Assembly: GCA_012799255.1 (NCBI GenBank)
Contig: JAAZLQ010000398.1
Location: forward strand, 1 to 43,538
DNA: 43,538 nucleotides
DNA from: Bacillota bacterium
GTDB taxonomy: Bacteria > Bacillota_G > Limnochordia > DTU010
Direction of reading: 5' to 3'
Shown here: piece after piece, positions 22,658-42,411 of the stretch
How the letters are laid out: every line of letters starts with the position of its first letter
Numbering within the stretch: position 1 is the first letter of the stretch
The notes under the pieces: model-generated
Told to the model about the DNA's origin: nothing
What the model saw: the letters and a program-made list of their open reading frames with translations, nothing else
Database searches by the model: none
Made by a program: the position numbers and the translations under genes

Positions 22658-22697
22658 AAAAAAGCGGTGTAACCACGAAATGTGATCATACACCGCT
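22658..22697 (-). terminator. Terminator ending the large salvage/transport operon
   Basis: On the minus strand AGCGGTGTA pairs with TACACCGCT across a partly paired interior and is followed by six T, 29 bases after the last permease stop. It is the first convincing minus-strand terminator downstream of the regulator gene at 42302. Confidence 0.85.
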
Positions 22698-23820: not shown

Positions 23821-23841
23821 TGAACTACCTCTTTCCTTCAC

Positions 23842-26819: not shown

Positions 26820-28226
26820 TTAGAACAATTTTCCAGGATTCAGTATCTGCTTGGGATCAAAGGCCTGTTTTATCTGCTTCTGGAGCGAAATAAGGGTACT
26901 GCCTAAATCCTCAATGAGATATTGCTTCTTAGCGATGCCGATACCATGCTCACCTGAAACCTGGCCCCGCAACTCTCTGCCCTTGGCATAGAGTAAGTCC
27001 ATGACAATGTCCATTTTCTCTTTCCAGACTTCTGGTTCTAGATCGCCTTGAAGGATGTAAACATGCATGTTTCCATCTCCGGCATGACCGAAACTGCGAA
27101 TTCTCACACCATGATTCATCTCCAACTCCTTGGTGTAGGCGATAAAGTTGGCGATTTCATTGCGAGGTACGACAATATCAACTTCATCCATATTACTTTC
27201 TGCCTTCAAGGCTTCCAGAAAAGCGCCGCGGGCATTCCAAACTCCCTCTTGCCGTTCTGAACTATCCGCAATCAAGACATCCTCGGCACCGACCTCTAGA
27301 CAGACATCCCCAGCGGCTTCATACTGTGCCTCTAGTTCAGCCGCATTGTTCCCATCGAAACGGAGTAGCAGATAAGCGGGAGCGGTTTTGTGGGGAAATT
27401 TCTTACCCAAGAACTCCTCTGCACTTAAGATTACATCCCTTTCCATAAACTCGATGGCCTGAGGCATTAATCTACTCCTGATGATCTTCGGAACCGCCCC
27501 AATGGCAAGATCCAAAGAAGGAAATGGCACTAACAGGGTCAAAACCTTCTTGGGCAGGGGCAGGAGTTTCACCATAATCTTAGTGATAATCCCTAAAGTT
27601 CCTTCGGAGCCGATCATAAGATCCAAAAGGCTATAACCTGATGAGTTCTTAGCCACTTTTCCGCCAAGGTTCACAATCTCTCCAGTGGCTAACACCACTT
27701 CAAGACCAAGCACATGATCTCTGGTCACACCGTATTTAACTGCACGCATACCACCAGCATTGGTCGCGACATTGCCACCTATAGTTGCACTTCTTTCACC
27801 AGGATCGGGCGCATAAAGCAATCCCAGTTTTTCTGTGGCCTCTTGCAGATCCATAATGATTACCCCAGACTCGACAGTTGCAGTGAGATTATCAGTGTCA
27901 ATCTCCAAGATGCGATTCAGTCTAGCTGTGGAAAGAAGGATCCCACCATGCAGGGGTACACAACCACCACAGAGCCCGGTACCGGCTCCCCTTGTGGTCA
28001 CGGGAATTCCCTTTTCGTATGCATAACGCATGACCTGGGCAACAATCTCGGCACTATCTGGTTCTACCACTACCTCTGGGAAGGCACGGGTTTCGCCTAA
28101 CTCATCGTGGGAATAGTCTTCTGAGATGGCATCTCCCACTTGAATGTGTTTTTCACCAACCAGTTGGCGCAGATAAGTAACATCAGCATCAACCAACTTG
28201 GGATATTGCATCATGAATCCCCCCAT
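26820..28226 (-). CDS. FAD-binding oxidoreductase, D-lactate dehydrogenase/GlcD-like (LctD-type partner of Etf)
   Basis: A 468-residue flavoprotein of the GlcD/D-lactate dehydrogenase family. FAD-binding (PCMH) motifs are TTRGAGTGLCGGCVPLHGG and DPGERSATIGGNVATNAGG. The C-terminal cap has GHAGDGNMHVYIL and SGEHGIGIAKKQYL, typical of 2-hydroxyacid oxidation. It follows EtfB and EtfA, with which it overlaps, exactly as in the lactate dehydrogenase/Etf complexes of anaerobes such as Acetobacterium woodii (lctBCD). The expected reaction is D-lactate to pyruvate. Glycolate or another 2-hydroxyacid is possible, but MurQ in the same operon releases D-lactate. A second ATG at 28214 is an alternative start. 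Confidence 0.92.
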   Translation of the reverse strand: MGGFMMQYPKLVDADVTYLRQLVGEKHIQVGDAISEDYSHDELGETRAFPEVVVEPDSAEIVAQVMRYAYEKGIPVTTRGAGTGLCGGCVPLHGGILLSTARLNRILEIDTDNLTATVESGVIIMDLQEATEKLGLLYAPDPGERSATIGGNVATNAGGMRAVKYGVTRDHVLGLEVVLATGEIVNLGGKVAKNSSGYSLLDLMIGSEGTLGIITKIMVKLLPLPKKVLTLLVPFPSLDLAIGAVPKIIRSRLMPQAIEFMERDVILSAEEFLGKKFPHKTAPAYLLLRFDGNNAAELEAQYEAAGDVCLEVGAEDVLIADSSERQEGVWNARGAFLEALKAESNMDEVDIVVPRNEIANFIAYTKELEMNHGVRIRSFGHAGDGNMHVYILQGDLEPEVWKEKMDIVMDLLYAKGRELRGQVSGEHGIGIAKKQYLIEDLGSTLISLQKQIKQAFDPKQILNPGKLF

Positions 28227-29400
28227 CCCCTAAAGCCTTTATAAGTTCTGGAATAACCTCGTACAAATCACCAACTATTCCGTAATGGGCCACGTCGAAT
28301 ATTGGTGCATCTGGATCACTGTTTATGGCAAAAATCACGTCAGAACCACGCATACCCGCCACTAGTTGAACTGCACCAGATATTCCGCAGGCGATAAACA
28401 GCCGTGGTCTCACAGTTCGGCCGCTCATGCCGATCTGTTGATTGGGATTTGCCCAACCTTGTTCCACTAAGGGTCTGGTCACACCCACAACGCCGCCAAT
28501 TAACTGGGCAAACTCCTCGAGAAGTTCCAAACCCTCTGGTTTTCCAATACCTCGACCTGCTGCCACTATTATCTCGGCTTCCGTAATAGAACTGGTTCCA
28601 GGATGGGGACGGAAAGCTAATACCTCTATCTTGGATTGCAGTTGATTCTGGTCAATTTCGCAATGGATAATCTCTCCATGAGGCTCTACTCTTTGAGCAG
28701 GAGCCATCACCTTATAACGGACGGTAGCCATCTGAGGCCGATGCCTTGGAGTGATAATCTGTGCCATCACATCTCCTCCAAAGGCTGGGCGCGTTTGAAC
28801 TAAATCACCATTTTCCTTGACAGTCAATGTTGTACAATCTGCGGTAAGTCCAGTCCTCAGCCTGGCGGCCACCCGTGGGGCCAAGGAGCGACCAATGGGA
28901 GTTGCACCCATCAGGATAATGTTAGGCTTAATTTCCTCCGCCAAATCCACCGTAATCGCGGTGTAAGGTTCAATCCGAAAGTACTCAAGCTCGGGACAGT
29001 CAAAAAGATAAACCCGATCCACACCATAATTCAGAACTTCTTTAGCCTGATTATGCATCTTGGACCCAGCCAAGTACACGGACACCTCTTGACCAAGCTG
29101 ATTAGCCAATTCTAATCCCTTTCCAATCAACTCATAGGTTACTGGTTGAATTTCGCCTCGCCTCTGCTCGGCAAAAATCAATACATCCCGATATTGAGTC
29201 AGATCCAGCTCACTCTGCGTTTTGCTCCTTTCCAGCCAAATGGCGTTCACCGGACAGGCCTTAACGCAAATGCTACACAAACGACAGGAGTCGGTAAACT
29301 CTATAGATTCAGGCCCCATTTCAACTCCGGCAAAGGGACAAGCCTCCACACACTGTCCACAGAGTATGCAAAGGGACTGATCCACCCGCATCTGACTCAT
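28189..29400 (-). CDS. etfA: Electron transfer flavoprotein alpha subunit with N-terminal 2x[4Fe-4S] ferredoxin domain
   Basis: A 403-residue protein. Residues 11-21 (CILCGQCVEAC) and 39-49 (CRLCSICVKAC) are two complete CxxCxxCxxxC motifs, a ferredoxin-like extension absent from ordinary EtfA. The rest is the Etf alpha fold, ending with the FAD site region GMSGRTVRPRLFIACGISG. It overlaps etfB by 4 bases and the D-lactate dehydrogenase gene by up to 38. Similar fused EtfA proteins occur in the Etf-coupled lactate dehydrogenases of acetogens, where reduced ferredoxin helps drive lactate oxidation with NAD+. Confidence 0.94.
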   Translation of the reverse strand: MSQMRVDQSLCILCGQCVEACPFAGVEMGPESIEFTDSCRLCSICVKACPVNAIWLERSKTQSELDLTQYRDVLIFAEQRRGEIQPVTYELIGKGLELANQLGQEVSVYLAGSKMHNQAKEVLNYGVDRVYLFDCPELEYFRIEPYTAITVDLAEEIKPNIILMGATPIGRSLAPRVAARLRTGLTADCTTLTVKENGDLVQTRPAFGGDVMAQIITPRHRPQMATVRYKVMAPAQRVEPHGEIIHCEIDQNQLQSKIEVLAFRPHPGTSSITEAEIIVAAGRGIGKPEGLELLEEFAQLIGGVVGVTRPLVEQGWANPNQQIGMSGRTVRPRLFIACGISGAVQLVAGMRGSDVIFAINSDPDAPIFDVAHYGIVGDLYEVIPELIKALGDGGIHDAISQVG

Positions 29401-30185
29401 ACGTATTTCAGCTCCTTCAGCTTTTCGTAAAACCTCCGGCTAAGCTCGTGAGGATTACCTTGCCAGAGTTCCTTTTCATCTCCCTTAGGCGGTGGAAAAA
29501 TCCTCTCCACCTGAGTTGGAGAGCCACTCAGACCCAAGTACTCCTCGTTCGCTCCACTTAATGCCTGACTGTCCCATACGTTGATTGCTCTATCGCTGGT
29601 GACTTTTTTCAGGCGATAAGACGGTAGCCTTGGTTGGTTTATATCCTTGGTAACCGTCAGCAAACAAGGAAGTTCAACCTTAAGTTCTAAGATACCATCA
29701 CCCATGTCCGCATCCACGGTAACGGAGTTGTCCGAGAGGTCATGGATTTTCGCCACATAAGATACATGGGGAATCTCTAGAAGTTCTGCTATACCGGGTC
29801 CCACTTGGGCGGTATCTCCGTCAGTCGTCTGCATGCCACAGAAGATAAGATCTGCTTTTGGTAAGCTGCGGATAGCCTGACTGAGGGTGTAAGATGTGGC
29901 CAGAGTATCCGCCCCAGCGAACTTACGATCAGAAAGAAGATAACCGTTATCAGCACCTAGAGTGTAGGCTTCCTTGATTATTGCTTCCGCCTGTGGGGGC
30001 CCCATCGACAGCACTGTAACTGTTCCCCCATATCGCTCCTTTAAAGCGACTGCAGCTTCCAAGGCATGGGCATCATAGAGATTGAGTTTAGACTCTACCC
30101 CTTCCCGCTTCAGAACACCTTTTTCCTCATCAATTTCAACGTCTGCTCCATCTGGAACTTGCTTAATGCAGACAATAAAATGCAT
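29397..30185 (-). CDS. etfB: Electron transfer flavoprotein beta subunit, bifurcating type
   Basis: A 262-residue Etf beta subunit starting MHFIVCIKQVPDGADVEID. The string FCGMQTTDGDTAQVGPGIAE is the form found in electron-bifurcating Etf proteins that bind a second FAD and NAD(H). The AMP/FAD region and the C-terminal recognition loop are intact. It forms the EtfAB heterodimer with the next gene product. It starts 14 bases after the glycoside-hydrolase-like gene and is part of the same transcript. Confidence 0.94.
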   Translation of the reverse strand: MHFIVCIKQVPDGADVEIDEEKGVLKREGVESKLNLYDAHALEAAVALKERYGGTVTVLSMGPPQAEAIIKEAYTLGADNGYLLSDRKFAGADTLATSYTLSQAIRSLPKADLIFCGMQTTDGDTAQVGPGIAELLEIPHVSYVAKIHDLSDNSVTVDADMGDGILELKVELPCLLTVTKDINQPRLPSYRLKKVTSDRAINVWDSQALSGANEEYLGLSGSPTQVERIFPPPKGDEKELWQGNPHELSRRFYEKLKELKYV

Positions 30186-30199
30186 TTACGTACCCCCTA

Positions 30200-31381
30200 T
30201 CAATCTTTCCAGGTTCCATAGTGGAAGAAGCATATCCCTTCTGCCCCGGCTATCTTCGACACAGCTTGGTACTCTTCTAATTCACTAGGACTGATTTCGA
30301 ATTCATTGCTGCGTAGTAAACCGCTGTACAGGGGAATAGTTTGCTTCATCTTGCTAACTTGCTCCTGGATCACTTGAGCGAAACTCTCAGGTTTCAACCA
30401 GTAGTTCATAGGACAGATAAAATCTATCAGTCCACTGTCTACCCAGTCCCACCAATTTTGCCCAAAATCCCTAACCACGCTAGCAGGGTCCATGGGTTTG
30501 TCAATTAACTCGTTGCCGTAGGGAGAATTATACCAAACTGTAATGGACAACTGCTTACTCGCATCGACTGCCTTTACTGTCTGATGGACTTGCCTGACTA
30601 CCGATTCAAGAATTGCAGAACGATATTCATACCATCGCTCGGCATAGTGATCCAGAATCCACTGTGCTATTTCTGCCGTATGACCCTGGTTTTCCGGTAT
30701 AGTGATCCCATTATCGCGGAAAAATCCTTCCAAACAGTGATTGCAAAAGCAATAACTAAAATTACGATAGAAAGCAAACTCATCCCCAAAAGGGGGATCG
30801 TCATAAAGAACTGCAGCCTCTTGGAGAAAATAACTGACTTCGCCACCGTTTGCAGCTAGTTTCAGTGGAGTTCCCTGTTTGAGAAAACTTACATTGTGTC
30901 CCATTTGCCGAGCATTAATGGTAAAAGTGCTCTGCCAATTGTAGTAACGAATAAAATCCAACTGTATACCACTTAGCTCAGGGTAACTCTGCAAGATGTT
31001 ATGCGAGATCTGCTTAAGCAACTCCACCACTTCTGACTTGTTCGGATCCAGGAAAAAACGTCGACCTGAGATGGGTTCATCTAAGATAGAAATGCCGTGA
31101 TAATCCACGCAGAACAGATCTCTATACTCGTCACTAATCCATTCCTCAGGTACTGAAGTAAGGGCGTTGAATAAGCCATGAACCTCCAGTTTATGCTCAA
31201 CACAACCCTGAATGAACTCTTGCATTTGGGGCTCCACCAGCTTAAAGTTCCTGTATTTCTTGCCCTCCAAGTGAAGGAGGACCACTTTCACATCATGTCG
31301 GTCAGTCCAAGCCAAGAACTCCTCCACACTCTGGGGCTGATTAAACCCCGGCCGAAAGTATACCCATACCGCATTACTCAT
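30200..31381 (-). CDS. Cytoplasmic glycoside-hydrolase-like TIM-barrel protein
   Basis: A 393-residue protein without signal peptide or membrane segment. The pattern fits the hypothetical glycosyl hydrolase (GHL) / GH10-like barrel group: an N-terminal WVYFRPGFNQPQSVEEFL strand-helix pair, the barrel string GIQLDFIRYYNW, a CFCNHCLEGFF cysteine cluster often seen in GHL proteins, and a late strand FICPMNYWL. No defined substrate is known to me. It sits between the muropeptide-type ABC ATPase gene and etfB, its ATG overlapping the ATPase stop by one base. A role in cutting imported peptidoglycan sugars is plausible. The upstream extension of the frame to 31474 is rejected. Confidence 0.75.
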   Translation of the reverse strand: MSNAVWVYFRPGFNQPQSVEEFLAWTDRHDVKVVLLHLEGKKYRNFKLVEPQMQEFIQGCVEHKLEVHGLFNALTSVPEEWISDEYRDLFCVDYHGISILDEPISGRRFFLDPNKSEVVELLKQISHNILQSYPELSGIQLDFIRYYNWQSTFTINARQMGHNVSFLKQGTPLKLAANGGEVSYFLQEAAVLYDDPPFGDEFAFYRNFSYCFCNHCLEGFFRDNGITIPENQGHTAEIAQWILDHYAERWYEYRSAILESVVRQVHQTVKAVDASKQLSITVWYNSPYGNELIDKPMDPASVVRDFGQNWWDWVDSGLIDFICPMNYWLKPESFAQVIQEQVSKMKQTIPLYSGLLRSNEFEISPSELEEYQAVSKIAGAEGICFFHYGTWKD

Positions 31382-32370
31382 CAAGCCACCCCTTCCCTTT
31401 TGGCCGACACTTTGATGCACCGAACCACATGATTTTCCGCCACTTCTTGGAGTGGTGGAACCTCTTGGGAACACTCGGCACTAGCCAGTGGACAGCGCGG
31501 ATGGAATCTGCACCCTGATGGTGGGTTGACTAGGTTCGGAATATCGCCCTTCGTGGTCAATTTACCTTGCCTGAAACCCTTTTCTGGTTGGGGTGCAGCA
31601 GATCTAAGCAATTGGGTATAGGGATGATACGCTTTTTGAATAACATCATCCGATGGTCCAATTTCTACAATCATTCCTGCATACATCACAGCAATGCGGT
31701 CTGCGATGTACCTCGCCCCGGCTAAGTCATGGGTAATATAAAGCAGTGAAATGTCTTGCTCATCTCTAAATTGCTTCAACATGTTCATAATGATCATTTT
31801 CATGGACACGTCCAGCATAGAAGTTGGTTCATCTGCTAAGAGCAGTTCAGGCTGAACAGAGATGGCCCGAGCGATGTTTATCCTCTGACGCTCACCGCCA
31901 GACAACTCATGGGGAAACTTACCCATGTATTTTTCTGCTGGCTCTAAACCCACACTGGCTAACAATTGGGCTATCTGATCCTTCACCTCAGCCTTGGTGG
32001 CCAACTTATGAATTTTGAAAGGCCTTTGTAGGATGCTTTCGATTTTATGGGTCGGATTTAGCACCTCATAAGGGTTTTGAAAGATCATCTGCACAGACTT
32101 TTTATAGTTCTGCTGCTTGATCTCCTTACCGAAAATATCCATTCCCTTAAATAGAACTTCACCCTTGGTAGGTTGATGTAGCTTAGCAACTACTTTAGCA
32201 GTAGTTGTCTTTCCACTGCCCGATTCACCTACTAAAGACACAATTTCTCGTTGTCCAAGAGAAAACGAGATATCGTACATCGCATTCACGTACTGCATCT
32301 TTGTTCCAAAACGCTTTACCGGAAAGTACATGAAAACATTGTTAAGCTCCAACACTTTTCCTTGTGCCAT
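31381..32370 (-). CDS. Oligopeptide-type ABC transporter ATP-binding protein (OppF-like), salvage operon
   Basis: A 329-residue ATPase. Walker A is GESGSGKTTTAKV, the signature is LSGGERQRINIARAI and Walker B is LLADEPTSMLD, where the last motif has Met in place of the usual Ala. It ends with the Opp C-terminal CRFHPRCPLASAEC domain. The frame opens further upstream, but the ATG at 32370 has GAGGTG at good spacing and overlaps the OppD-like gene by 29 bases. It is part of a full importer with the four genes before it. Confidence 0.93.
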   Translation of the reverse strand: MAQGKVLELNNVFMYFPVKRFGTKMQYVNAMYDISFSLGQREIVSLVGESGSGKTTTAKVVAKLHQPTKGEVLFKGMDIFGKEIKQQNYKKSVQMIFQNPYEVLNPTHKIESILQRPFKIHKLATKAEVKDQIAQLLASVGLEPAEKYMGKFPHELSGGERQRINIARAISVQPELLLADEPTSMLDVSMKMIIMNMLKQFRDEQDISLLYITHDLAGARYIADRIAVMYAGMIVEIGPSDDVIQKAYHPYTQLLRSAAPQPEKGFRQGKLTTKGDIPNLVNPPSGCRFHPRCPLASAECSQEVPPLQEVAENHVVRCIKVSAKREGVA

Positions 32371-33352
32371 CAGGACCCACCTCTTCCGTATATAAATGAC
32401 ACGCGACTTGGTGAGACTCATCCATTCTTAGCAATTGAATCGGCGCTTTGCACTTCTCCATTCGCTTAGGGCACCGCTCATAAAACCGGCAGCCAGGTAC
32501 AGGATTTAACAGACTCGGTGGTTTACCTGGTATTCCACCATAATCTTTAAACTCACCCATTAATGGTGGAAAGGAGTTCAATAACCCCTCTGTATAAGGA
32601 TGATAAGGCCTCTCGTAGATACTTTGGGCCAAGCCTAACTCCACAATTTGGCCACCATACATAATCGCGATTCGGTCAGATACCTCTAACAACAGGGATA
32701 GATCATGGGTGATAAAGATGACCGAAAAACCGAGACATCTCCTCAGCTCTTCGATTTTTTCAATGATCGTCCGCTGAACCACCACATCCAGTGCGGTAGT
32801 CGGTTCATCCATAATCACTACATCAGGCTCAAGAATAAGTGCCATAGCAATTACAACCCTCTGCTTCATTCCACCGGAAAGTTGGTGGGGATAATCGCTG
32901 AGCCGTTCAGATGGGAGATCCACCAGTTCCATAAGCTCTACAACTCTCTCCCTAGCCACCTGCTTGGAGATGCCTTTCCGATGGGCCAGGATTCCATCTA
33001 TGAGCTGTTCGCCAATGGTCAAAACTGGGTTTAGCGCACTCATGGCTGACTGAAACACCATGGATATTCTAGACCAGCGGATTTTACGTAGCTGAATCTC
33101 AGGTAAGGTTGCGATGTTCTCACCATCAAGAAGTATCTCGCCCGAAAAAATCTTCCCATTGCTCTGCAAAAGGTTCATGATGGAATAGGCAAGGGTTGAC
33201 TTGCCGCAACCTGATTCGCCTGCTAATCCCAAAAACTCACCTTTTTTCAGCTCAAAGCTCACGTTATCTACAGCTCTCACCCGGCCAGCTTTCGTTTGAT
33301 AGCCAGCCTGCAAATCCTTCACCTGCAAAATTGCATCGCCCACGTTGTTCAC
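32342..33352 (-). CDS. Oligopeptide-type ABC transporter ATP-binding protein (OppD-like), salvage operon
   Basis: A 336-residue ATPase with Walker [14 protein letters not shown], signature LSGGMKQRVVIAMAL, Walker [13 protein letters not shown] and C-terminal CRFYERCPKRMEKC. The GTG start directly follows the OppC-like stop. It is one of two ATPases of the complete importer of this operon. Confidence 0.93.
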   Translation of the reverse strand: MNNVGDAILQVKDLQAGYQTKAGRVRAVDNVSFELKKGEFLGLAGESGCGKSTLAYSIMNLLQSNGKIFSGEILLDGENIATLPEIQLRKIRWSRISMVFQSAMSALNPVLTIGEQLIDGILAHRKGISKQVARERVVELMELVDLPSERLSDYPHQLSGGMKQRVVIAMALILEPDVVIMDEPTTALDVVVQRTIIEKIEELRRCLGFSVIFITHDLSLLLEVSDRIAIMYGGQIVELGLAQSIYERPYHPYTEGLLNSFPPLMGEFKDYGGIPGKPPSLLNPVPGCRFYERCPKRMEKCKAPIQLLRMDESHQVACHLYTEEVGPDGTRKSVGA

Positions 33353-34213
33353 CTACCTTCGGCGTAATTTGGGGTTGGAGATCTCATCGATCGCGAAGTT
33401 TAATAAGGCCAGTGAAGTTCCCAGTAAACCAATGGCCAACCCCGGTGGTAAGAACCACCACCAAGCTCCGTACAGTAGTGCCGCACTATTTTGGGCCCAG
33501 TATAACTGGGTACCCCAGCTGATCACGGTTAAGTCACCCAATCCCAAAAATGACAATGATGCTTCGCCTAAAACGGCAGCAACGGTGGAAGTTAGAAACG
33601 TGGCCATCACTAAAGGAATAATATTGGGCAGAATCTCTCTGAACACAATTACTATGGGCCGCTCGCCCAACACCTCGGCTGCTTGTACGTATTCTCTTTG
33701 CCTGACTGAGAGAACTTGAGCACGGATCACCCTAGCCCCCCATGCCCAGCCTGTTATGGCCAAAACTAATACAATTGGCATAATGCCCTCGACAGTGATA
33801 TAGGTAGCTATCACGATAATTAGCACCAAAGTGGGAAGCACCAAGAAAATGTTGATGATAAACGAGATCACATCATCCACCCAACCACCAAAATAGCCTG
33901 CCGCCAAGCCAACCGTGAGTGAAATAAAGGTGGTTAGCAACCCAGTAGATAAGCCAATAAGCAAACTTGTACGGGTTCCATAGATAAATTGAGAAAAGAT
34001 ATCATAACTTGTCTGAGTAGTACCTAAAAGGTGGTCCCTACTAATGGGAGCACGTGCCGGAAATCTACGACCATCTTCGCCCCGGTTTTGGTGTGAACCA
34101 TAGGGGGCAATTAGAGGAGCAAATACCGCCACCAAAACAAAAGTAAGTAAAATGATCAAACCTAACAAGGCCTTTTTGTTGGACAAAAATAGACCAGCAA
34201 AGTCGCGCATCAT
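33353..34213 (-). CDS. Oligopeptide-type ABC transporter permease (OppC-like), salvage operon
   Basis: A 286-residue permease of normal OppC length with six membrane segments, the LLGTTQTSYDIFSQFIYGTR loop after TM1 and the EAA loop AAEVLGERPIVIVFREILPN. It overlaps the OppB-like gene by 4 bases. It lacks the long insertion seen in the other OppC-like permease of the window. Confidence 0.93.
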   Translation of the reverse strand: MMRDFAGLFLSNKKALLGLIILLTFVLVAVFAPLIAPYGSHQNRGEDGRRFPARAPISRDHLLGTTQTSYDIFSQFIYGTRTSLLIGLSTGLLTTFISLTVGLAAGYFGGWVDDVISFIINIFLVLPTLVLIIVIATYITVEGIMPIVLVLAITGWAWGARVIRAQVLSVRQREYVQAAEVLGERPIVIVFREILPNIIPLVMATFLTSTVAAVLGEASLSFLGLGDLTVISWGTQLYWAQNSAALLYGAWWWFLPPGLAIGLLGTSLALLNFAIDEISNPKLRRR

Positions 34214-35196
34214 TTGGAAGCACCTCCCCTTACCCTTGGATCCAAAGCCATAATGGCCAGGTCAGCCAAAAAGTTGGCGCTTAACACAGCTATAGAAATA
34301 AAGAGGAAGATACCTTGGATTAAGGGGTAATCTCGCTGTTGGGTAGCTTGATAAAACATAAACCCAACACCCGGATAGGAAAACACCATCTCGGTCATCA
34401 AGCTACCACCCACCACAAATCCTAGTTGCATGGCAAAACCTGTGATCGAAGGTAGAATTGCATTGCGGGCTGCGTAGTTGTACTTTATCCTGAGACGAGA
34501 TAGTCCCTTAGCTTCCGCCACAGTAATGTAGTCTTCTGCTAAGACATTGAACATGTTGTTTCGCATTAGAAGAATCCAATACCCAAGAGAAGTGATGGCA
34601 ATGGTCATGGCTGGTAAGAAACCATGAGAAATGACCGAGCGCACAAACTCCCAGGATGCCCGATTCATAATGGACGAACTAGCTCCCCCTCCCAACGGAA
34701 AGATGGGATTCTTAAAGGAGAAGAAGTATACGAGAACTAAGCCAAACCAGAAAAACGGAAAAGAACGGATGAATAAAAAGGCACCTAAGATTACAGAAGA
34801 TAGAGATCGATCCCGTTTCCAAGCTATTTCGGTTCCTAGTAAGGTTCCGAAAATGAAACTTATTATGGTTGCAAGTCCTACTAAACCTAAAGTCCAGGGA
34901 ACAGCACGCTCAAGCACGGTGCTAACTCCGGCAGGATAGTGACTTACCGATATTCCCAAGTCGCCGCGGAGCAGATTACGGAAGTAAATACCAAACTGTT
35001 GGATGAGGTTTAGGTCCGTATCCCCGCCAAATGCTGCCCGAATCGCGTGCTCAGCTGCAGCATCCATATTACCCAGCTTATGGATCAGCACAGTGGCGGG
35101 ATCCCCAGGCATTAAGCGCGGGAGTACGAAATTAATTACAATAGCGATAAAAATGGCTAGAACAAACCACATTAGCTTCCGAATGAAATATTTCAT
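34210..35196 (-). CDS. Oligopeptide-type ABC transporter permease (OppB-like), salvage operon
   Basis: A 328-residue permease with an N-terminal membrane segment (MWFVLAIFIAIVINFVLPRL), the PGDPATVLIHKLG loop, five further segments and the EAA loop TVAEAKGLSRLRIKYNYAARN. It begins 52 bases after the binding-protein gene; a strong hairpin fills that gap. Confidence 0.93.
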   Translation of the reverse strand: MKYFIRKLMWFVLAIFIAIVINFVLPRLMPGDPATVLIHKLGNMDAAAEHAIRAAFGGDTDLNLIQQFGIYFRNLLRGDLGISVSHYPAGVSTVLERAVPWTLGLVGLATIISFIFGTLLGTEIAWKRDRSLSSVILGAFLFIRSFPFFWFGLVLVYFFSFKNPIFPLGGGASSSIMNRASWEFVRSVISHGFLPAMTIAITSLGYWILLMRNNMFNVLAEDYITVAEAKGLSRLRIKYNYAARNAILPSITGFAMQLGFVVGGSLMTEMVFSYPGVGFMFYQATQQRDYPLIQGIFLFISIAVLSANFLADLAIMALDPRVRGGASK

Positions 35197-35215
35197 GTGC
35201 CCACCTCGCCTTGGT

Positions 35216-35242
35216 AAATCCCCCAGCTGAGCTGGGGGATTT
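35216..35242 (-). promoter_or_regulatory. Strong stem-loop between binding-protein and permease genes of the salvage operon
   Basis: AAATCCCCCAGCT and AGCTGGGGGATTT are perfectly complementary around a single central base. On the minus strand no T-run follows the stem; the T-rich stretch is on the plus side, where no gene ends. It is therefore probably not the end of the operon but an mRNA stabiliser or partial attenuator, as in the other transporter unit. Confidence 0.6.
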
Positions 35243-35248
35243 AATTTT

Positions 35249-36916
35249 TTACTTCACTGGCTGGAGATTCAAGAAAATCAGCATCTTACCCATGCCAGCT
35301 GCTTGTGGATCTACATAAGGATTGTCAGCATTGGGCCATCCGGTGAAGTTCCGAGTTGAATATTGGAACCACACAGGGTTAAAGAACAACGGCACCATTG
35401 GTGTATCCTTCATAAACTCGTAGATCACCTTACTCATTAGCTCCGCCTGCTCTTCTGAATCAGTGCTACGCCTGAAGGCGTCTAATGCCTCATCCACGAT
35501 GGGATTCCTGTAGCGAACCTGCGAGTGGCTAGCGGCTGCTTGACCCACAGGCGCATAGTGACGGGAGTGCAGAATATTGTCAGACTGGAAGAAAGCGGAC
35601 GAGCCGGACGTTGCATAACCCATGGACATCTGATAATCACCGTTGATTAAATTGTCCATAAATGGTGATGGCCACGCTCTTTGAGCCACACGGGCATTGA
35701 TGCCAATGGCGGCTAACTGTTCACTAATAACGTCTGTGGCAATAATCCAGTCGCTCCATCCGGTTGGAACATACAGGTCAAAGGACAACTCCACGCCGTC
35801 TTTTTCCATAATGCCAGCACTGTTGCGACGATATCCTTCTGCCTCCAAGAGAGCGATGGCACCGGCCGGATCGAATCCAGGATCAAGTGCTCTAGCTTCG
35901 TCTGATACCCAGTGCAAGAAACCACGCTTTACTCCAGAACTGTCTGCAGGTTGTGCTCCTGAGTCCATAATCATGGTAATCTCTTCTTGATCAATTGCCA
36001 TGGCCACAGCCCTGCGGACATTGGCGTTATTAAACGGTTCTACATCATTGTTCAAGCTGAGATAGACAATATTTCCTTCTGGCAACCAATAGTGATTATG
36101 TTCTGGATTTGCAGCAACATAAAGTTGATCGATGTTAGCGATGAAATAGCCGCCCCAGTCAACTTCACCATTGATGATTTTCATTGCTGCTTGCTCGTTG
36201 CCTGTGGCTCCAATATATTGCACCCCATCAATATAGGGTAAGGGCTGACCATCTGCACCAATTTGCCAATAGTTTGGATTACGGGTGAGGCTATAAGAGA
36301 ACTCACTGAAACTTCCATCCACAAACATGAATGGACCCGTACCTACAGGGTTCTCGTTTCCAGTCCATTCACTGGGATTCTCAATATGAGCCCAAATGTG
36401 CTCAGGTACCATGTAAACCTCAGCTACCCTGGTTAAGATAGGTACATTCACACTGTCAAAAGTGAGCCTAACCGTATAGTCATCGAGTTTTTCAACAGCC
36501 AACAACCCCTGTTGCCAAATACCCGAGCGGTCAAGGGCTGCATTACTCTTTGCTAAGTTAAAGGTAAATAGAACGTCATCTGCATCAAATTTCTCGCCAT
36601 CATTCCAATATACGTTCTCTTCTAAGAAGAGAGTGAGAGTTGTTAAATCCTCTCCCCACTCATATCCCTTGGCCAGCCATGGTAAGATTTGTCCTGTGTA
36701 GTTGTTACTTACCAAGAGGGTTTCGTAAAAGTGTCCCAATGTGGTTTGCAGTGCATTTGGTGAAAACGGGTTAAAGTTCTTCACCAACACACCTTGCCTA
36801 CCCTCAGTTACTTTGACGATACCACCGCGTCTTACAGTCTCGTTGCTGAAGACTGGAACGGCCAAAGCAACCACTAATAAGGTGACAACCAATACTATCA
36901 ATCTGGATTTTCGCAT
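35249..36916 (-). CDS. ABC transporter substrate-binding protein, family 5, salvage operon
   Basis: A 555-residue secreted binding protein. The signal peptide (RLIVLVVTLLVVALAVPVFS) again lacks a lipobox Cys. SBP_5 motifs include TLFLEENVYWNDGEKFDADD and ENPVGTGPFMF. It lies directly after nagZ (89-base gap) and before its permeases and ATPases, so its ligand is probably a peptidoglycan fragment or amino-sugar oligosaccharide rather than a plain peptide; that is inference. The ATG at 36916 has GAGGAGG 6 bases upstream; a TTG six bases earlier is the alternative. Confidence 0.92.
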   Translation of the reverse strand: MRKSRLIVLVVTLLVVALAVPVFSNETVRRGGIVKVTEGRQGVLVKNFNPFSPNALQTTLGHFYETLLVSNNYTGQILPWLAKGYEWGEDLTTLTLFLEENVYWNDGEKFDADDVLFTFNLAKSNAALDRSGIWQQGLLAVEKLDDYTVRLTFDSVNVPILTRVAEVYMVPEHIWAHIENPSEWTGNENPVGTGPFMFVDGSFSEFSYSLTRNPNYWQIGADGQPLPYIDGVQYIGATGNEQAAMKIINGEVDWGGYFIANIDQLYVAANPEHNHYWLPEGNIVYLSLNNDVEPFNNANVRRAVAMAIDQEEITMIMDSGAQPADSSGVKRGFLHWVSDEARALDPGFDPAGAIALLEAEGYRRNSAGIMEKDGVELSFDLYVPTGWSDWIIATDVISEQLAAIGINARVAQRAWPSPFMDNLINGDYQMSMGYATSGSSAFFQSDNILHSRHYAPVGQAAASHSQVRYRNPIVDEALDAFRRSTDSEEQAELMSKVIYEFMKDTPMVPLFFNPVWFQYSTRNFTGWPNADNPYVDPQAAGMGKMLIFLNLQPVK

Positions 36917-36936
36917 AGTCAACCTCCTCTTTATTG

Positions 36937-36964
36937 ATCTTAAAACTACCGATTAACAGAGCAA
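36937..36964 (-). promoter_or_regulatory. Possible internal promoter before the binding-protein gene
   Basis: TTGCTC (36959-36964), a 16-base spacer and TAAGAT (36937-36942) lie in the 89-base gap after nagZ. The match is moderate; it would allow extra expression of the transporter. Confidence 0.35.
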
Positions 36965-37005
36965 CTAATAGGTTTTGACCTGGTTAACTACTTCTCACCT
37001 CCCCA

Positions 37006-38598
37006 TTATTGGTTTAGGCCAGGTATTGAAACAGGCAATCTGCCTGTGGCGCTATATCGCCCTAAGAGTATTTGAGCCACTTCCTCCCAAACTAACGGCC
37101 GACTGCCATAAGCCGCTACGTAAGTAGGTATATTCGGAAAAGCCTGAAGCTCATAAGGGGTACGTGTCCCAACTGCAATAACCCGATCGTGCTGGCTAAT
37201 TAAGCTTTGCACCAACTTGAGTTGGCTCGGATTCAGATGAGCATCTCCTGTCGCGACAACAACCTTGTTACACGCTTGGGCTCTCGCCAAGACTGCTTCC
37301 TCTTCTTGGGGAGAAACGGTCAAGTTGACCACGATGTTTTCCATCTGAGGTAAACCATTGTTCGTTAGTGCTTTAGCCAAGTTCCCCATGTCTACCAGAA
37401 CATCTTCTGCTAACGTTGCTGCACTTGCGTTGAACTCCACTACTAGTACCCGTTCGTTCCCTAGAGGCAGACTGAAAGGAACATCCTTAACCAAGGTAAT
37501 ACTGTTGCGGATTGCGTCCCTCATAACCTGCATATGCTCAGATGAACCCACAACCCCAAGGTCCACCTCCTCAGGTGAACTATCCAACAGTCTAAAGCGC
37601 TCTTTGGCTTTCATAACCCTCTCCACAGACTCATCGATGCGTTGTTCAGAAATCCTTCCCGACTTCACCGCCGCTACCAATGCATCGAAGGCTTGCTGCT
37701 GTAGTTCTTCAGTATGACTGATCAACACTAGATCGGCACCAGCCTCGATGGTCATCACAGCAGCTTCCACCGTTCCAAATGTGCCTTTAATCGCCATCAT
37801 TTCCATGCAATCAGTCATAATCAGACCGTCAAAGCCCAACTCTTCACGCAGAAGCTTAGTTAAGACTTGGTAGGATAGGGTTGCTGGCAATCCCTCAACT
37901 GGTTCGATTGCGGGAAACACCACATGGGCCGTCATAATCGCGGCTACACCCTCTTCTATCGCTGCTCTAAATGGAAGCAACTCCACCCTTTCAAGCCTTC
38001 CACGATCATGTGCAATCACTGGTAAATCATGGTGGGAATCAAGGTTTGTATCTCCATGACCCGGAAAGTGTTTGGCCACAGCCGCCACGTTTTTTTGATA
38101 TCCACGAATTGCCGCAGCACCTAGAGCCGCAACCGTATGAGGATCTTCACCGAAGGATCGGACACCAATCACTGGGTTCTCAGGATTGCTGTTTACGTCT
38201 ACCACGGGAGCCAGATTCATATTGACACCTGTAGCTCGAAGTTCCTGACCCGACACTTGACACACCTTTTCGGTGTATTCCTCGCTGCCGCATGCCCCTA
38301 GAGCCATGGCACTGGGAGCTACGGCCACCCCATTTGTCAAACGGGCAACGGTACCTCCCTCTTGATCCGTGGCGATAAAAAGGCCTGCCCCACTTGGTGA
38401 GTCTTTAGTAAGTTCCTGTAACTCCCGATTAAGTTCCGCTAATTGCTGCACATTACTAACATTGCGGGCAAAATGAATTACTCCGCCTAAATTATGCTCG
38501 GTAATAAACCGTTTGATAAAAGGAGTTACCTTAGTATCACTAAACCCAAACATCAGCAACTGACCAATTTTCGCCTCTAAGGTCATCGATTTAACCAT
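37006..38598 (-). CDS. nagZ: Beta-N-acetylhexosaminidase (GH3, NagZ-type)
   Basis: A 530-residue glycoside hydrolase family 3 enzyme. The NagZ hallmark KHFPGHGDTNLDSHHDLP carries the His-Asp general acid/base pair, and the nucleophile Asp is in LIMTDCMEMMAIKG. A second C-terminal alpha/beta domain makes it the two-domain type of Bacillota. It removes GlcNAc from GlcNAc-(anhydro)MurNAc and muropeptides. No signal peptide is present, so it acts in the cytoplasm on imported fragments, unlike the secreted Bacillus NagZ. It starts 20 bases after anmK. Confidence 0.94.
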   Translation of the reverse strand: MVKSMTLEAKIGQLLMFGFSDTKVTPFIKRFITEHNLGGVIHFARNVSNVQQLAELNRELQELTKDSPSGAGLFIATDQEGGTVARLTNGVAVAPSAMALGACGSEEYTEKVCQVSGQELRATGVNMNLAPVVDVNSNPENPVIGVRSFGEDPHTVAALGAAAIRGYQKNVAAVAKHFPGHGDTNLDSHHDLPVIAHDRGRLERVELLPFRAAIEEGVAAIMTAHVVFPAIEPVEGLPATLSYQVLTKLLREELGFDGLIMTDCMEMMAIKGTFGTVEAAVMTIEAGADLVLISHTEELQQQAFDALVAAVKSGRISEQRIDESVERVMKAKERFRLLDSSPEEVDLGVVGSSEHMQVMRDAIRNSITLVKDVPFSLPLGNERVLVVEFNASAATLAEDVLVDMGNLAKALTNNGLPQMENIVVNLTVSPQEEEAVLARAQACNKVVVATGDAHLNPSQLKLVQSLISQHDRVIAVGTRTPYELQAFPNIPTYVAAYGSRPLVWEEVAQILLGRYSATGRLPVSIPGLNQ

Positions 38599-38618
38599 TA
38601 CATCACCTAATCGCTTTT

Positions 38619-39752
38619 TTATACTTGCAGTTGGTTAGCATTTGGATAACAGACCTTCCCAAGAACTCCTGGTTGAGCCCCGGTTGCCTCGGGAACATTG
38701 TTTACCTGGCGGCGCAGTGTTGCCTGGGCCAAGAAGGCAAAAGCAATCGCTTCTTTGGCGTCCCCCGAAATACCCACATCTTCATGGGTGACAACGGGAA
38801 TTTGCAACAACTCACGGAGCCAGCTTAATAAAGTCGGATTGTAGCTCCCGCCTCCCCCGACTATTACCTGGTTAAGTGAGCAATAGGGAAAGATAAACCG
38901 TTCATACTGATCCGCGATACTATGGGCGGTAAAAGCAGTCACAGTCGCCACAAGATCTGCTGGAGCAAGAGAGCAATTCTTCACTAAATCCTGGGAAAAC
39001 TGCTTACCGAAGACTTCTCTTCCTGTTGTTTTCGGCGGATCCTCTGCGAAGTAAGGATGGGCCAATAAGTTCGCAAGCAGTTCTCCATCTACCCTACCCT
39101 TAGCTGCCAATTCACCGTTTCGATCATACTTCAGCTTGCCCTCACTAATAATCTCAACCACACCGTCAATGATCATGTTGCCAGGACCGGTATCAAAGGC
39201 AATTGCTGGTAAAGCGCTACTCTCGGTAGTTACAACCGTTACATTACCAATGCCACCTATATTCTGCACACCAACTGGTGCTAAGTGCCCAAACGTGATT
39301 CGGTCAAAGTAGGGTACTAAGGGAGCTCCCTGACCACCTAAGGCGATATCTGCCGGGCGAAAGTCCCCAACCGTCACTATGCCGGTCCGGTTTGCAATAA
39401 CTGAGGGTTCACCGATCTGTAGAGTGGAATGACCTGGAATATGATAAATTGTCTGTCCATGGGAACCAACAAAATCAATCTGGGCTAGCTCCGTTCCCGA
39501 ACGTTCTGCCAAACTAATCACTGCTTGCGCAAAAAGTTCCCCTAATTCCATATTAGCCCAGCAGATTTCTTCCACATTTGCCGTTCTGGGATCGCATAAG
39601 CCTAGGATGTATTCTCTTTGTTCACTGGTAAAGGGCTGAGTAAAAAAGTCGATGAGTTCGAAACTGTTATCTTCGTAGATTCTAACTAGTGCCGCATCAA
39701 TTCCATCAATGGAAGTTCCGGACATTAATCCCACCGCTAACTCGTAGTTCAT
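38619..39752 (-). CDS. anmK: Anhydro-N-acetylmuramic acid kinase
   Basis: A 377-residue sugar kinase of the ASKHA fold. It opens the 1,6-anhydro ring of anhydroMurNAc while phosphorylating it to MurNAc-6-P. Family motifs are GLMSGTSIDGIDAALV at the N-terminus, GSHGQTIYHIPG, IAFDTGPGNMIIDG and VIVGGGGSYNPTLL. It lies between nagZ and murQ, the enzymes before and after it in the pathway. The ATG has GGGAGGGA at good spacing. Confidence 0.96.
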   Translation of the reverse strand: MNYELAVGLMSGTSIDGIDAALVRIYEDNSFELIDFFTQPFTSEQREYILGLCDPRTANVEEICWANMELGELFAQAVISLAERSGTELAQIDFVGSHGQTIYHIPGHSTLQIGEPSVIANRTGIVTVGDFRPADIALGGQGAPLVPYFDRITFGHLAPVGVQNIGGIGNVTVVTTESSALPAIAFDTGPGNMIIDGVVEIISEGKLKYDRNGELAAKGRVDGELLANLLAHPYFAEDPPKTTGREVFGKQFSQDLVKNCSLAPADLVATVTAFTAHSIADQYERFIFPYCSLNQVIVGGGGSYNPTLLSWLRELLQIPVVTHEDVGISGDAKEAIAFAFLAQATLRRQVNNVPEATGAQPGVLGKVCYPNANQLQV

Positions 39753-39786
39753 CTCTAGTCCCTCCCCAAAAGAAATCTGGTCACCG

Positions 39787-40701
39787 CTATTGCTTACCGG
39801 CGAGCTTTATTGCTTCAGTCACAAATCCTTCACTATCGACTAGTAGCTGCATTGCTTGTGGAAAATCACAGTTGGCCTTCAACATCACTATTGATGCCTT
39901 AATATTACCCTGGGATTGTTCTAAAGCTTCTTGGGCTCGCTGTAGATTCATTCCGGTGGCATCCATGACAATCCGTTCCGCACGACGGCGTAACTTTTCA
40001 TTTGTCGGTTGCATATCTACCATCAGATTTTGATAGACCTTTCCCAAGCGGATCATGGTCACTGTACTCAGGATGTTTAGCACCAACTTCTGGGCGGTTC
40101 CAGCCTTCATTCTTGTAGAACCAGTTATTACCTCTGGACCAACCACTGGAGCGATAACGATATCAGCTACTTGGTGCATGGGGGTTTCGCGATTGCAGGT
40201 GAGACCAATCTTCCTCATCCCCACTTCTGTTGCCTTCTCCAACGCTCCCATCACATAGGGTGTACGTCCGCTTGCACTAATTCCGATAACCACGTCCAAG
40301 GGACTTGGATTTTCAGCCATGAGGTCGCTAACGCCAGCTTGATAATTATCTTCTGCCGCTTCTACAGGATGGAACATGGCGATCTCACCGCCAGCTATTT
40401 TGGCCTTAAAGACATCCTCACCCACCCCAAACGTAGGAAGAAGTTCAGCAGCATCGAGGACCCCTAAGCGCCCACTCGTTCCTGAGCCCATGTAAAACAC
40501 CCGTCCGCCTTTTTTTAAGGAGTCGATCATCAATTCTACAGCCTTAACCATCTGATCCGCTTCTGCGTGAACAGCTTGCACAGCTTTCTGATCCTCTTCA
40601 CAGATTAGGTTGATAACCTCCCCAATGGGCAACTCATCAATGTTCATGGAAGCTGTATTGCGTGTTTCTGTCACCAGACTATCGAGTTTAATCTTATTCA
40701 C
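39787..40701 (-). CDS. murQ: N-acetylmuramic acid 6-phosphate etherase
   Basis: A 304-residue SIS-domain lyase that cleaves the lactyl ether of MurNAc-6-P, giving GlcNAc-6-P and D-lactate. Signatures are VTETRNTASMNIDELP, the phosphosugar-binding string YMGSGTSGRLGVLDAAELLP (with the conserved Glu), GISASGRTPYV and GSTRMKAGTAQKLVLN. GTG at 40701 has GGAAGGAG at good spacing and gives the usual N-terminus; the frame extends upstream to 40740. It overlaps nanE by 8 bases. Its D-lactate product links it to the lactate dehydrogenase genes of the same operon. Confidence 0.96.
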   Translation of the reverse strand: MNKIKLDSLVTETRNTASMNIDELPIGEVINLICEEDQKAVQAVHAEADQMVKAVELMIDSLKKGGRVFYMGSGTSGRLGVLDAAELLPTFGVGEDVFKAKIAGGEIAMFHPVEAAEDNYQAGVSDLMAENPSPLDVVIGISASGRTPYVMGALEKATEVGMRKIGLTCNRETPMHQVADIVIAPVVGPEVITGSTRMKAGTAQKLVLNILSTVTMIRLGKVYQNLMVDMQPTNEKLRRRAERIVMDATGMNLQRAQEALEQSQGNIKASIVMLKANCDFPQAMQLLVDSEGFVTEAIKLAGKQ

Positions 40702-41413
40702 CAAAATCGCTCCTTCCGCTATTAAGGCGGTGTTTTTCATCTATACTCTCTACAAAATACCTAGTAATCCGATCCGGCATAGTAATCATTGTTCCAACAA
40801 CAACAGCCAAAGCACCACTATCCAGGGCACGAACGACCTGTTCTGGGGTGGAATACCGTCCTTCAGCAATAACAGGTATCCCTCGCCTGGCTATTTGGTG
40901 AACCAACTCAAGGTCTGGCTTCTCCCTATGTAATGTATGGGGAGTATAGCCTGATAAGGTTGTTGCCACTAAATCCGCGCCCGCCTTAACCGCTTCTTCC
41001 GCCTCTGCCAAGTTCGAAACATCTGCAATTACGCCCAACCCCAACTCTGTATGAATTCTCCAAATTAAGGTTTTTAGATCCGTACAGTTACCGATCCTGG
41101 GATTGGTGGCCTGGACTGCAATGATATCAGCCCCAGCTAAAGCCACTTCTTCTGCATGTTCAAAGCGGGGAGTAATATAGGTTTCTGCTCTATTTAATGT
41201 CTTGCTAAGACCAATTATGGGCAAGGACGTAACCTTACGCATCGCGGCAATGTTCTGGGCACCTTCCGCTCGTAAGCCTGCTGCTCCACCATGCTCAACC
41301 GATTGGGCGATGGCTGCAATAATCTGAGGATTATCCAGCGGTGTATTAGGTAAAGCCTGACAAGAGACAATGAGTTTACCAGTAACTTGACTTAAAAGGT
41401 TTTGAACATCCAC
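40694..41413 (-). CDS. nanE: Putative N-acetylmannosamine-6-phosphate 2-epimerase
   Basis: A 239-residue TIM-barrel epimerase interconverting ManNAc-6-P and GlcNAc-6-P. Motifs are GKLIVSCQALPNTPL at the N-terminus, GAAGLRAEG, TPRFEHAEEVALAGADIIAVQAT, VIADVSNLAEA and PVIAEGRYSTPEQVVRAL. GTG at 41413 with AAGGTGA upstream fits the family start; the frame opens at 41437. Its presence is unexpected, because ManNAc is not part of peptidoglycan. It may serve sialic acid or teichoic amino sugars, or an untested route. It lies 4 bases after the regulator gene. Confidence 0.93.
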   Translation of the reverse strand: MDVQNLLSQVTGKLIVSCQALPNTPLDNPQIIAAIAQSVEHGGAAGLRAEGAQNIAAMRKVTSLPIIGLSKTLNRAETYITPRFEHAEEVALAGADIIAVQATNPRIGNCTDLKTLIWRIHTELGLGVIADVSNLAEAEEAVKAGADLVATTLSGYTPHTLHREKPDLELVHQIARRGIPVIAEGRYSTPEQVVRALDSGALAVVVGTMITMPDRITRYFVESIDEKHRLNSGRSDFGE

Positions 41414-41417
41414 AGTC

Positions 41418-42302
41418 TCACCTTGAATTCCGATCATTCATTGATCTTCTATAAACGGCCTGTTGGTTACGGTCAAACTGCTCTAAGATTTGCTCCTTAC
41501 GATTTGCCGCAATTCCTAAAGTGAGCAGGTCCACAATGGCCAGCTGACATAATCTAGAGATCATAGAGCCACTCTTAAAAGGCAGTTCGTTAGATAGGGC
41601 CAGTAGAAAGACATCAGAACGCTCAGCCAACTTCGAACGGTGATTTCCCACGATACCGATGATCTTAGCTCCACTAGCTTTGGCCACAGACATTGACTCT
41701 AAAACGTCTTTTGTTTCACCAGAGTGGGAGATGCAAATCACTGCGTCCTTGGGTGATAAACCGTTAGCAAAAAAAATCTGATTGTGCGGATCCACAAAGG
41801 ACCAGGCCTCGACTCCTACTCTCATCAGTTTTTGCTGTGCATCATTGGCTACTAATCCGGAAGCACCGGATCCAAAACACCCAACCCTGGAGCTATTACT
41901 CAAAATCGCTACAGCCTCTTCCAATTGTGGTAGTTCTAAAAACTCTAGAGTGTCATTAAAGGACTCTATACATGTACCGAAAAACTTACAGGCAACTGAG
42001 TATAGGCTATCATCGGGTTCGATCGCCTCAAACAGATTGGTCTCGTTTTTCGGAAGTTCAGTGGCAATAGCCATTTTCATTTCTCCGAACCCCTGATATC
42101 CAAGTGCCTTGGACATCCTGGTAATTGTCGCTTCACTGCAATTACCAACTTGAGCAAGTTGACTAATGGTCATGGTAGTCACTCTCCGCGGATCAGCGAG
42201 AATCAATTCTGCAACATCCTGCTCAGCCGGTCGAAGAGTGTGCCGGAGTGTCCTGAGTTTGACAAGCGCTTCTTTATTTTCAATGTTTATCGAGTAGTAC
42301 AT
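41418..42302 (-). CDS. RpiR-family regulator (MurR-like) of the amino-sugar salvage operon
   Basis: A 294-residue regulator with an N-terminal HTH_6 domain (TISQLAQVGNCSEATITRMSKALGYQGFGEM) and a C-terminal SIS domain (GSGASGLVANDAQQKLMRVG, then VICISHSGETKDVLESM) that binds a phosphosugar. In this setting the effector is probably MurNAc-6-P or GlcNAc-6-P, as in E. coli MurR. It is the first gene of the operon, so it probably autoregulates. ATG at 42302 follows GGAGGGA; the frame extends upstream to 42377, which would overlap the kinase terminator. Confidence 0.93.
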   Translation of the reverse strand: MYYSINIENKEALVKLRTLRHTLRPAEQDVAELILADPRRVTTMTISQLAQVGNCSEATITRMSKALGYQGFGEMKMAIATELPKNETNLFEAIEPDDSLYSVACKFFGTCIESFNDTLEFLELPQLEEAVAILSNSSRVGCFGSGASGLVANDAQQKLMRVGVEAWSFVDPHNQIFFANGLSPKDAVICISHSGETKDVLESMSVAKASGAKIIGIVGNHRSKLAERSDVFLLALSNELPFKSGSMISRLCQLAIVDLLTLGIAANRKEQILEQFDRNQQAVYRRSMNDRNSR

Positions 42303-42375: not shown

Positions 42376-42411
42376 AAAAAAAATCCTCCCTAAAAGATGG
42401 AAGGATTTTTA
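42376..42411 (-). terminator. Terminator of the amino-sugar kinase gene
   Basis: On the minus strand AAATCCTTCC pairs with GGGAGGATTT (one wobble) and is followed by a run of eight T in all, just after the kinase stop. It separates the kinase from the regulator-led operon. Confidence 0.8.

Follow-up and report, generated by a model that had tools for sequence, protein, structure and literature searches.

Does a gene cluster that breaks down peptidoglycan amino sugars also carry its own enzyme for the lactate released on the way? This question is raised by contig JAAZLQ010000398.1 of a Bacillota bacterium, probably an uncultured anaerobe (assembly GCA_012799255.1; Limnochordia, DTU010), whose whole stretch of 43,538 nucleotides (nts) is hereafter called the window. 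On its minus strand, genes for the catabolism of N-acetylmuramic acid (MurNAc) are followed by lctBCD, which encode a lactate dehydrogenase (LDH) coupled to an electron-transferring flavoprotein (Etf). We consider it likely that the cluster is an operon for scavenging the amino sugars of peptidoglycan, in which D-lactate released by the etherase MurQ is oxidized to pyruvate by LctBCD via electron confurcation.

A MurNAc catabolic cluster that contains lctBCD

The original prediction had described a tightly packed minus-strand run, murR-nanE-murQ-anmK-nagZ-oppABCDF-GHL10-lctBCD. Every gene named in it is an open reading frame (ORF), and the families are backed by profile searches (Table 1). The MurNAc catabolic set (regulator, etherase, kinase, glucosaminidase and importer) forms a single co-directional run. 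The murR product matches PF01418 and PF01380 above their cut-offs, and its top NCBIfam matches are of the MurR/RpiR type, with all listed models below cut-off. Named close protein relatives of the window come from metagenome assemblies of Limnochordia and of other Bacillota.

By profile, the last three genes of this run encode EtfB, an iron-sulfur EtfA and a FAD-linked oxidase. Their proposed composition as an electron-confurcating LDH was borne out by structure searches, in which LctB, LctC and LctD each match the Acetobacterium woodii complex (Ldh-EtfAB, PDB 7qh2) first among solved structures. LctD scores 588 bits against chain 7qh2_C, compared with 261 bits for the next chain, a glycolate oxidase; for LctC the lead is smaller (398 bits against 363 bits for CarE, 6fah). 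LctC contains two complete CxxCxxCxxxCP motifs and matches the Fer4 profile. The two complexes are alike in their three subunits, the ferredoxin domain on EtfA and ten substrate-site residues, and differ in that at least one cysteine of the two complete 4Fe-4S motifs in the window LctC has no counterpart in the aligned A. woodii sequence. Against the GlcD model TIGR00387, LctD reaches 390 bits, under the cut-off of 568, and it remains below cut-off for all NCBIfam models listed. The ten substrate-site residues (Leu80, Arg328, Leu332, Glu344, Asp346, His377, His384, Tyr386, Glu422 and His423, as given in excerpts of PMC9232219) are all identical in the window protein, as judged by eye from an alignment to 7qh2_C. 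According to the same excerpts they are also well conserved in membrane-associated Ldh (PMC9232219), and therefore they do not single out the LctBCD family.

Other genomes with a mur-lct link

The co-occurrence of murQ and etfAB-lctD in one gene neighbourhood had been set beforehand as a test of the prediction. The link was found in five related genomes (G029 to G033) and in the distant G298; it is absent from the short contigs available for the nearest LctBCD relatives and from G036, and some relatives with mur genes have no LctD. G030 and G032 each have, on a single contig, murR-murQ-nagK divergent from SBP-perm-perm-lctB-lctC-lctD. G029, G031 and G033 have this type of layout across contig ends, with breaks inside lctB, permB and the gene of the solute-binding protein (SBP). 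As all five form one starred clade in the LctD tree, they were counted as one event. The layout of G298, a member of the 398-genome phylum sample described below, places lctBCD divergent from a set made up of anmK, nagZ, a fusion of MurQ with a beta-lactamase, a NagK-like kinase and NamZ. Weaker signs are NamZ adjoining lctD on the opposite strand in G037, NanE downstream of lctD in G033, and, in G019, NanE and a BadF kinase immediately preceding a different lctBCD. A MurQ fused to a beta-lactamase-family domain is encoded at L108:4293-6467, and long MurQ frames in loci L140 and L141 look similar.

Relatives also show where lctBCD sits in the window. The order in G006 is murR-nanE-murQ-nagZ-SBP2-Perm2B-Perm2C-anmK-GHL10 and that in G019 is SBP2-Perm2B-Perm2C-murR-nanE-murQ-nagZ, with no lct genes in either stretch. 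The window thus has the G006 gene set, reordered, plus oppABCDF and lctBCD. Since genes of the relatives' mur operon flank lctBCD on both sides, lctBCD lies inside the mur locus and not at its edge.

At the genome level, across the class to which G001 belongs (72 genomes), LctD (1e-120) was detected in 28, MurQ (1e-40) in 42 and both in 24. In a phylum sample of 398 genomes, LctD (1e-130) was found in 33, MurQ (1e-40) in 93 and both in 19; MurQ is present in 19 of 33 genomes with LctD and in 74 of 365 others (Fisher p about 1e-5, without correction for kinship).

Mur-linked and lactate-uptake lct loci

We also asked how mur-linked loci compare with lct loci for lactate uptake, labelled by an LctP permease and/or a LarA racemase within 10 kb. 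Neither lies within this distance of the window lct genes: tblastn with one LctP and one LarA query (1e-5) detected none in the window, and no LctP or LarA Pfam domain occurs among its main genes from 14090 to 43401 (importer genes by NCBIfam). Labels were assigned by blastp (1e-20) with our own panel, which may overlook remote homologues. The 60 LctD loci that were scored divide into 6 with mur markers within 10 kb, 10 with LctP or LarA, 44 with neither and none with both; as about one locus with both is expected by chance, the zero overlap is weak. These counts cover 60 of 61 loci, G026 being left out because its LctD frame is displaced by a longer overlapping ORF, though LctBCD is present there. 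Seven of the 60 rows lack both an LctB call and an LctC call, some of them owing to contig ends, and in only 21 do the two flanks reach at least 9 kb and 8.5 kb.

LctP/LarA-LctBCD operons of the same phylum share LctBCD with the window (by Pfam, L118 and L123 carry LctP, and L123 also LarA; the others were called by blastp). They differ in their permease and/or racemase for external lactate, neither of which is found in any of the six scored mur-linked loci. The 58-row LctD tree, which also leaves out G084, G192 and G443, places 8 of 9 mur-labelled rows on one side and 9 of 10 lactate-labelled rows on the other. Several forks of this tree are weak, the two-side split is at the midpoint root and is unstarred, G298 (86/53) and G103 are on long branches, and the mur labels of G029 and G031 rest on contig ends. 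In the close LctD clade, the lactate permease PF02652 is above cut-off in 2 of 15 genomes (completeness unstated).

Upstream of murR in L067, L087, L088, L089 and L090, there is a conserved 18-bp operator-like element, GTTAGAAGGTTTTTTAAC, recognized by aligning the intergenic regions between murR and SBP and exact in 5 of 144 loci. It is exact in G029, G031, G032, G033 and G036, and slightly different in G030 and G034. We considered an operator shared with the window and rejected it; the element is absent from the window at up to three mismatches, and thus regulation in the window is not tied to theirs.

Extent of the transcription unit

From murR to lctD, the intergenic gaps range from an 80-nt overlap to 83 nts; 14 nts separate GHL10 from lctB, and the other lct junctions overlap. 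SBP2 follows 141 nts after lctD, and then Perm2B and Perm2C. The operon end at lctD proposed in the original prediction was probably too early, as the putative unit continues via SBP2-Perm2B-Perm2C to position 22726. These 17 genes, from murR through Perm2C, are probably transcribed as one unit. Terminator-like hairpins lie on both of its sides (Table 1), and past the one after Perm2C there are a tRNA-Leu gene and housekeeping genes (FUR, ribonucleotide reductase). Genome signal scans were near chance for both terminator-like sites (23, versus 18.9 in shuffled sequences, standard deviation 4.8) and promoter-like sites (20, versus 25.8, standard deviation 5.7), so the case for an operon is based on spacing and conservation. 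The prediction had also seen no convincing internal terminator. A perfect 13-bp hairpin does exist in the gap between oppA and oppB (35215-35243), and no T-run follows it on the operon strand, the T-run being on the plus strand only; it is perhaps an element for RNA stability or processing.

Table 1. Features of the murR-Perm2C region of the window, with the separate kinase gene upstream
Feature	Position	Strand	Evidence or remark
murR-like RpiR-family regulator	41418..42302	-	HTH_6 + SIS; start ATG
nanE, N-acetylmannosamine-6-phosphate 2-epimerase	40694..41437	-	NF002231, 246 bits (cut-off 189)
murQ, MurNAc-6-phosphate etherase	39787..40740	-	TIGR00274, 342 bits (cut-off 302); solved MurQ 4lzj, E 1.6e-78
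anmK, anhydro-MurNAc kinase	38619..39752	-	NF007148, 451 bits (cut-off 387)
nagZ, two-domain GH3 beta-N-acetylhexosaminidase with C-terminal domain	37006..38598	-	NF003740, 213 bits (cut-off 207); PF00933
oppA-like family-5 solute-binding protein	35249..36922	-	Profile search
oppB and oppC, permeases	33353..35196	-	Profile search
oppD and oppF, ATPases	31381..33352	-	Profile search
GHL10-like TIM-barrel protein	30200..31381	-	Predicted fold nearest to PgaB hydrolase domain and C. difficile Cwp19
lctB (EtfB)	29397..30185	-	7qh2_B, E 1.3e-77
lctC (EtfA with N-terminal two-cluster ferredoxin domain)	28189..29400	-	7qh2_A, E 2.5e-118; two 4Fe-4S motifs
lctD (FAD lactate dehydrogenase subunit)	26820..28211	-	7qh2_C, E 1e-175
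SBP2, second family-5 solute-binding protein	24912..26678	-	Profile search
Perm2B and Perm2C, permeases of SBP2	22726..24813	-	Profile search
BadF-type kinase, MurK/NagK-like (separate upstream unit)	42418..43401	-	PDB 8zo3 MurNAc/GlcNAc kinase, E 5e-26; PF01869
Terminator-like hairpin upstream of murR, separating the kinase gene	42379..42410	-	Terminator scan
Terminator-like hairpin with T-run after Perm2C	22658..22696	-	By-eye reading, beyond the scanned range

Several other features were observed in this region and its surroundings. Before SBP2, there is a 13-codon ORF, MKVRRRCRGVKQI (26733-26692, minus strand), with a strong ribosome site, whose end abuts the ribosome site of SBP2. It resembles a leader or coupling peptide; no counterpart was seen upstream of SBP2 in G006 or G019. 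The G+C content of lctBCD (0.45-0.49) is similar to that of the surroundings, with no foreign composition seen. A gene with a YkuD L,D-transpeptidase domain, a cell-wall enzyme, is located about 3.6 kb past the proposed end of the unit (17987-19075, minus strand), and a cyclic di-GMP-II riboswitch (67.7 bits) at 687-768 on the minus strand. In G002, a rifampin ADP-ribosyltransferase-like gene (Arr-ms; L002:1720-2484) is found beside lctBCD.

Importers, kinase and the GHL10-like protein

Import of muropeptides had been predicted as well. A complete family-5 ATP-binding cassette (ABC) importer is indeed present, but its OppA resembles chitooligosaccharide binders, as its closest solved relatives include chitin-oligosaccharide binding proteins. 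Only two matches to OppA were obtained at 1e-60 in the 22 genomes of the G001 family (34-35% identical), and no orthologue was found beside mur genes. These OppA relatives point to saccharides of N-acetylglucosamine (GlcNAc), and relatives of the upstream kinase point to MurNAc or GlcNAc. For the second importer, there are relatives within mur operons at 85% (G019) and 87% (G006) for SBP2, and at 87%/81% (G019) and 90%/86% (G006) for Perm2B/Perm2C.

The GHL10-like family is small (18 sequences in a protein search, including that of the window), with a conserved YCFCxxC-like motif and a confident TIM-barrel-like model. The protein has no solved sequence relative. Foldseek ranks Cwp19, a lytic transglycosylase, first for this model, and a second fold comparison ties PgaB and Cwp19 at the top, among many TIM barrels. 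In a wider sample, a GHL10 match (1e-20, 31% identical) was found in 1 of 199 genomes, on the same contig as a MurQ match and nearly 2 Mb from it. The mur operon of G006, which is outside these 199-genome matches, ends with a 55% GHL10 relative.

Proposed pathway

In the proposed scheme, one or both family-5 ABC importers would take up GlcNAc-MurNAc-type saccharides, NagZ would remove GlcNAc, and AnmK, together with the MurK/NagK-like kinase, would produce MurNAc-6-phosphate. MurQ would then split this in the cytoplasm into GlcNAc-6-phosphate and D-lactate. The chemistry of MurQ is established, and a Glu and an Asp of the window MurQ align, via a solved MurQ, with E83 and D115 of the E. coli enzyme, which we take to be its catalytic acids. 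LctBCD would convert D-lactate, 2 NAD+ and reduced ferredoxin to pyruvate, 2 NADH and oxidized ferredoxin. This is the stoichiometry of LctBCD-type LDH, in which reduced ferredoxin is spent to drive the reduction of NAD+ by lactate. Pyruvate:ferredoxin oxidoreductase (PFOR) could regenerate the ferredoxin, and each lactyl group could thus give acetyl-CoA and NADH. We infer the substrate and its stereochemistry, the confurcation and the flux in this scheme. Of the 22 genomes in the G001 family, 20 have NagA and 21 have PFOR above cut-off. As for the predicted use of the lactyl group as both electron and carbon source, the carbon part would stand; because confurcation consumes reduced ferredoxin, the group would be an electron source only indirectly.

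As MurQ releases the D isomer internally, such a cluster would need neither a lactate permease nor a racemase. D-lactate is given as the product of MurQ in excerpts of PMC5790795, PMC6165865 and PMC3022706, and the endergonic problem of lactate oxidation with NAD+, along with the confurcation principle, is described in those of PMC9232219. Fusobacterium Ldh favours D-lactate and Megasphaera Ldh is reported as D-specific in the available part of PMC12630350.

Alternative explanations

Several observations weigh against this pathway. G001 to G003, which have the nearest LctBCD (about 84%), show unrelated lct neighbours, on contigs of 6-8 kb. G006 and G018 carry mur genes and have no LctD match at 1e-100; the mur operon of G019 is separate from its different LctBCD; and G036 has lct on another contig than murR-murQ-nagK, which there is divergent from a different importer. 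On shared contigs, murQ and lctD are about 15 kb (G039), 23 kb (G037) and 39 kb (G079) apart. In 40 genomes, at least two independent cases of murQ and lctD lying within 10 kb of each other would arise by chance with a probability of about 0.04 under a simple 2.4-Mb model (G030/G032 being one event), and such proximity statistics, computed without matched control regions, are by themselves modest. Furthermore, the Lar-type domain PF09861 occurs in 51 of 72 class genomes; as it is this common, the absence of a racemase was dropped as evidence. The link's absence in several close relatives could mean that LctBCD is a general lactate-oxidizing module that landed in a co-directional cluster, the lactate being external or fermentative and the mur genes unrelated. 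The 44 loci with neither type of marker (many with short flanks) and the ten with LctP or LarA fit this too. We regard it as unlikely, given the short gap and overlaps at the lct junctions, the mur-type transporter beyond lctD, the recurrence of the link in two other layouts and the lack of a lactate permease above cut-off in 13 of the 15 clade genomes.

Another concern is the substrate. The GlcD-like family is broad in substrate, and the sub-cut-off scores of LctD for the listed NCBIfam models would allow a different 2-hydroxyacid, for instance glycolate or an aromatic lactate, formed by the pathway or the organism. This reading is also favoured by G004, in which sugar-ABC and TIM-barrel genes adjoin a second LctBCD, and by G005, which is similar by blast. 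Such a substrate appears improbable, because among solved structures LctD matches its A. woodii counterpart far better than any other, the ten substrate-site residues are identical, and MurQ supplies D-lactate. There is a somewhat better, still small, chance that the operon mainly serves chitooligosaccharides or other GlcNAc glycans, with MurQ/AnmK and LctBCD acting on a small share of peptidoglycan or on the cell's own wall during recycling. The solved relatives of OppA favour such a role, to which NagZ, NanE and GHL10 are also suited, and it is compatible with D-lactate oxidation downstream of MurQ. However, AnmK and MurQ by family act on MurNAc derivatives, and NamZ, a peptidoglycan enzyme, is found beside LctBCD in G037 and also in the G298 cluster. 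Peptidoglycan scavenging with oxidation of MurQ-released D-lactate by LctBCD thus remains our preferred explanation.

Comparison with known systems and implications

Known MurNAc operons of Bacillus subtilis and E. coli share with the window an etherase and its regulator (MurR-MurQ), a glucosaminidase (NagZ) and a kinase for MurNAc (AnmK). They use a phosphotransferase system transporter, whereas the window cluster has ABC import and, in addition, a lactate-oxidizing enzyme. In an engineered Corynebacterium glutamicum growing on MurNAc, released lactate accumulates and the D-lactate dehydrogenase Dld is named as required for its use (excerpts of PMC6165865); unlike the window, this is an engineered strain with a quinone-linked enzyme, and the genes are not in one operon. 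The original prediction knew of no described operon joining MurNAc catabolism to Etf-LDH, and our literature search agrees: no such description was recognized in the portions of open PMC literature covered, including those of PMC10199937, PMC13411273, PMC3022706 and PMC5790795. We therefore call the pairing new, built from known parts.

On balance, we lean towards these loci being a distinct class of lct locus, in which a confurcating LDH works within the MurNAc catabolism of anaerobic scavengers of dead bacteria, with MurQ replacing permease and racemase; they would ferment the lactyl group by way of D-lactate generated inside the cell, and the pairing would have emerged or been retained in at least three gene layouts. 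The anaerobic fate of MurQ-released D-lactate is not settled in the parts of the literature consulted, and the pathway, if true, would give it a defined anaerobic route. It would also predict D-specificity for the LctBCD complex, provide a gene-neighbourhood rule separating users of internal lactate from users of external lactate, and tie electron confurcation to the turnover of biomass from dead bacteria.

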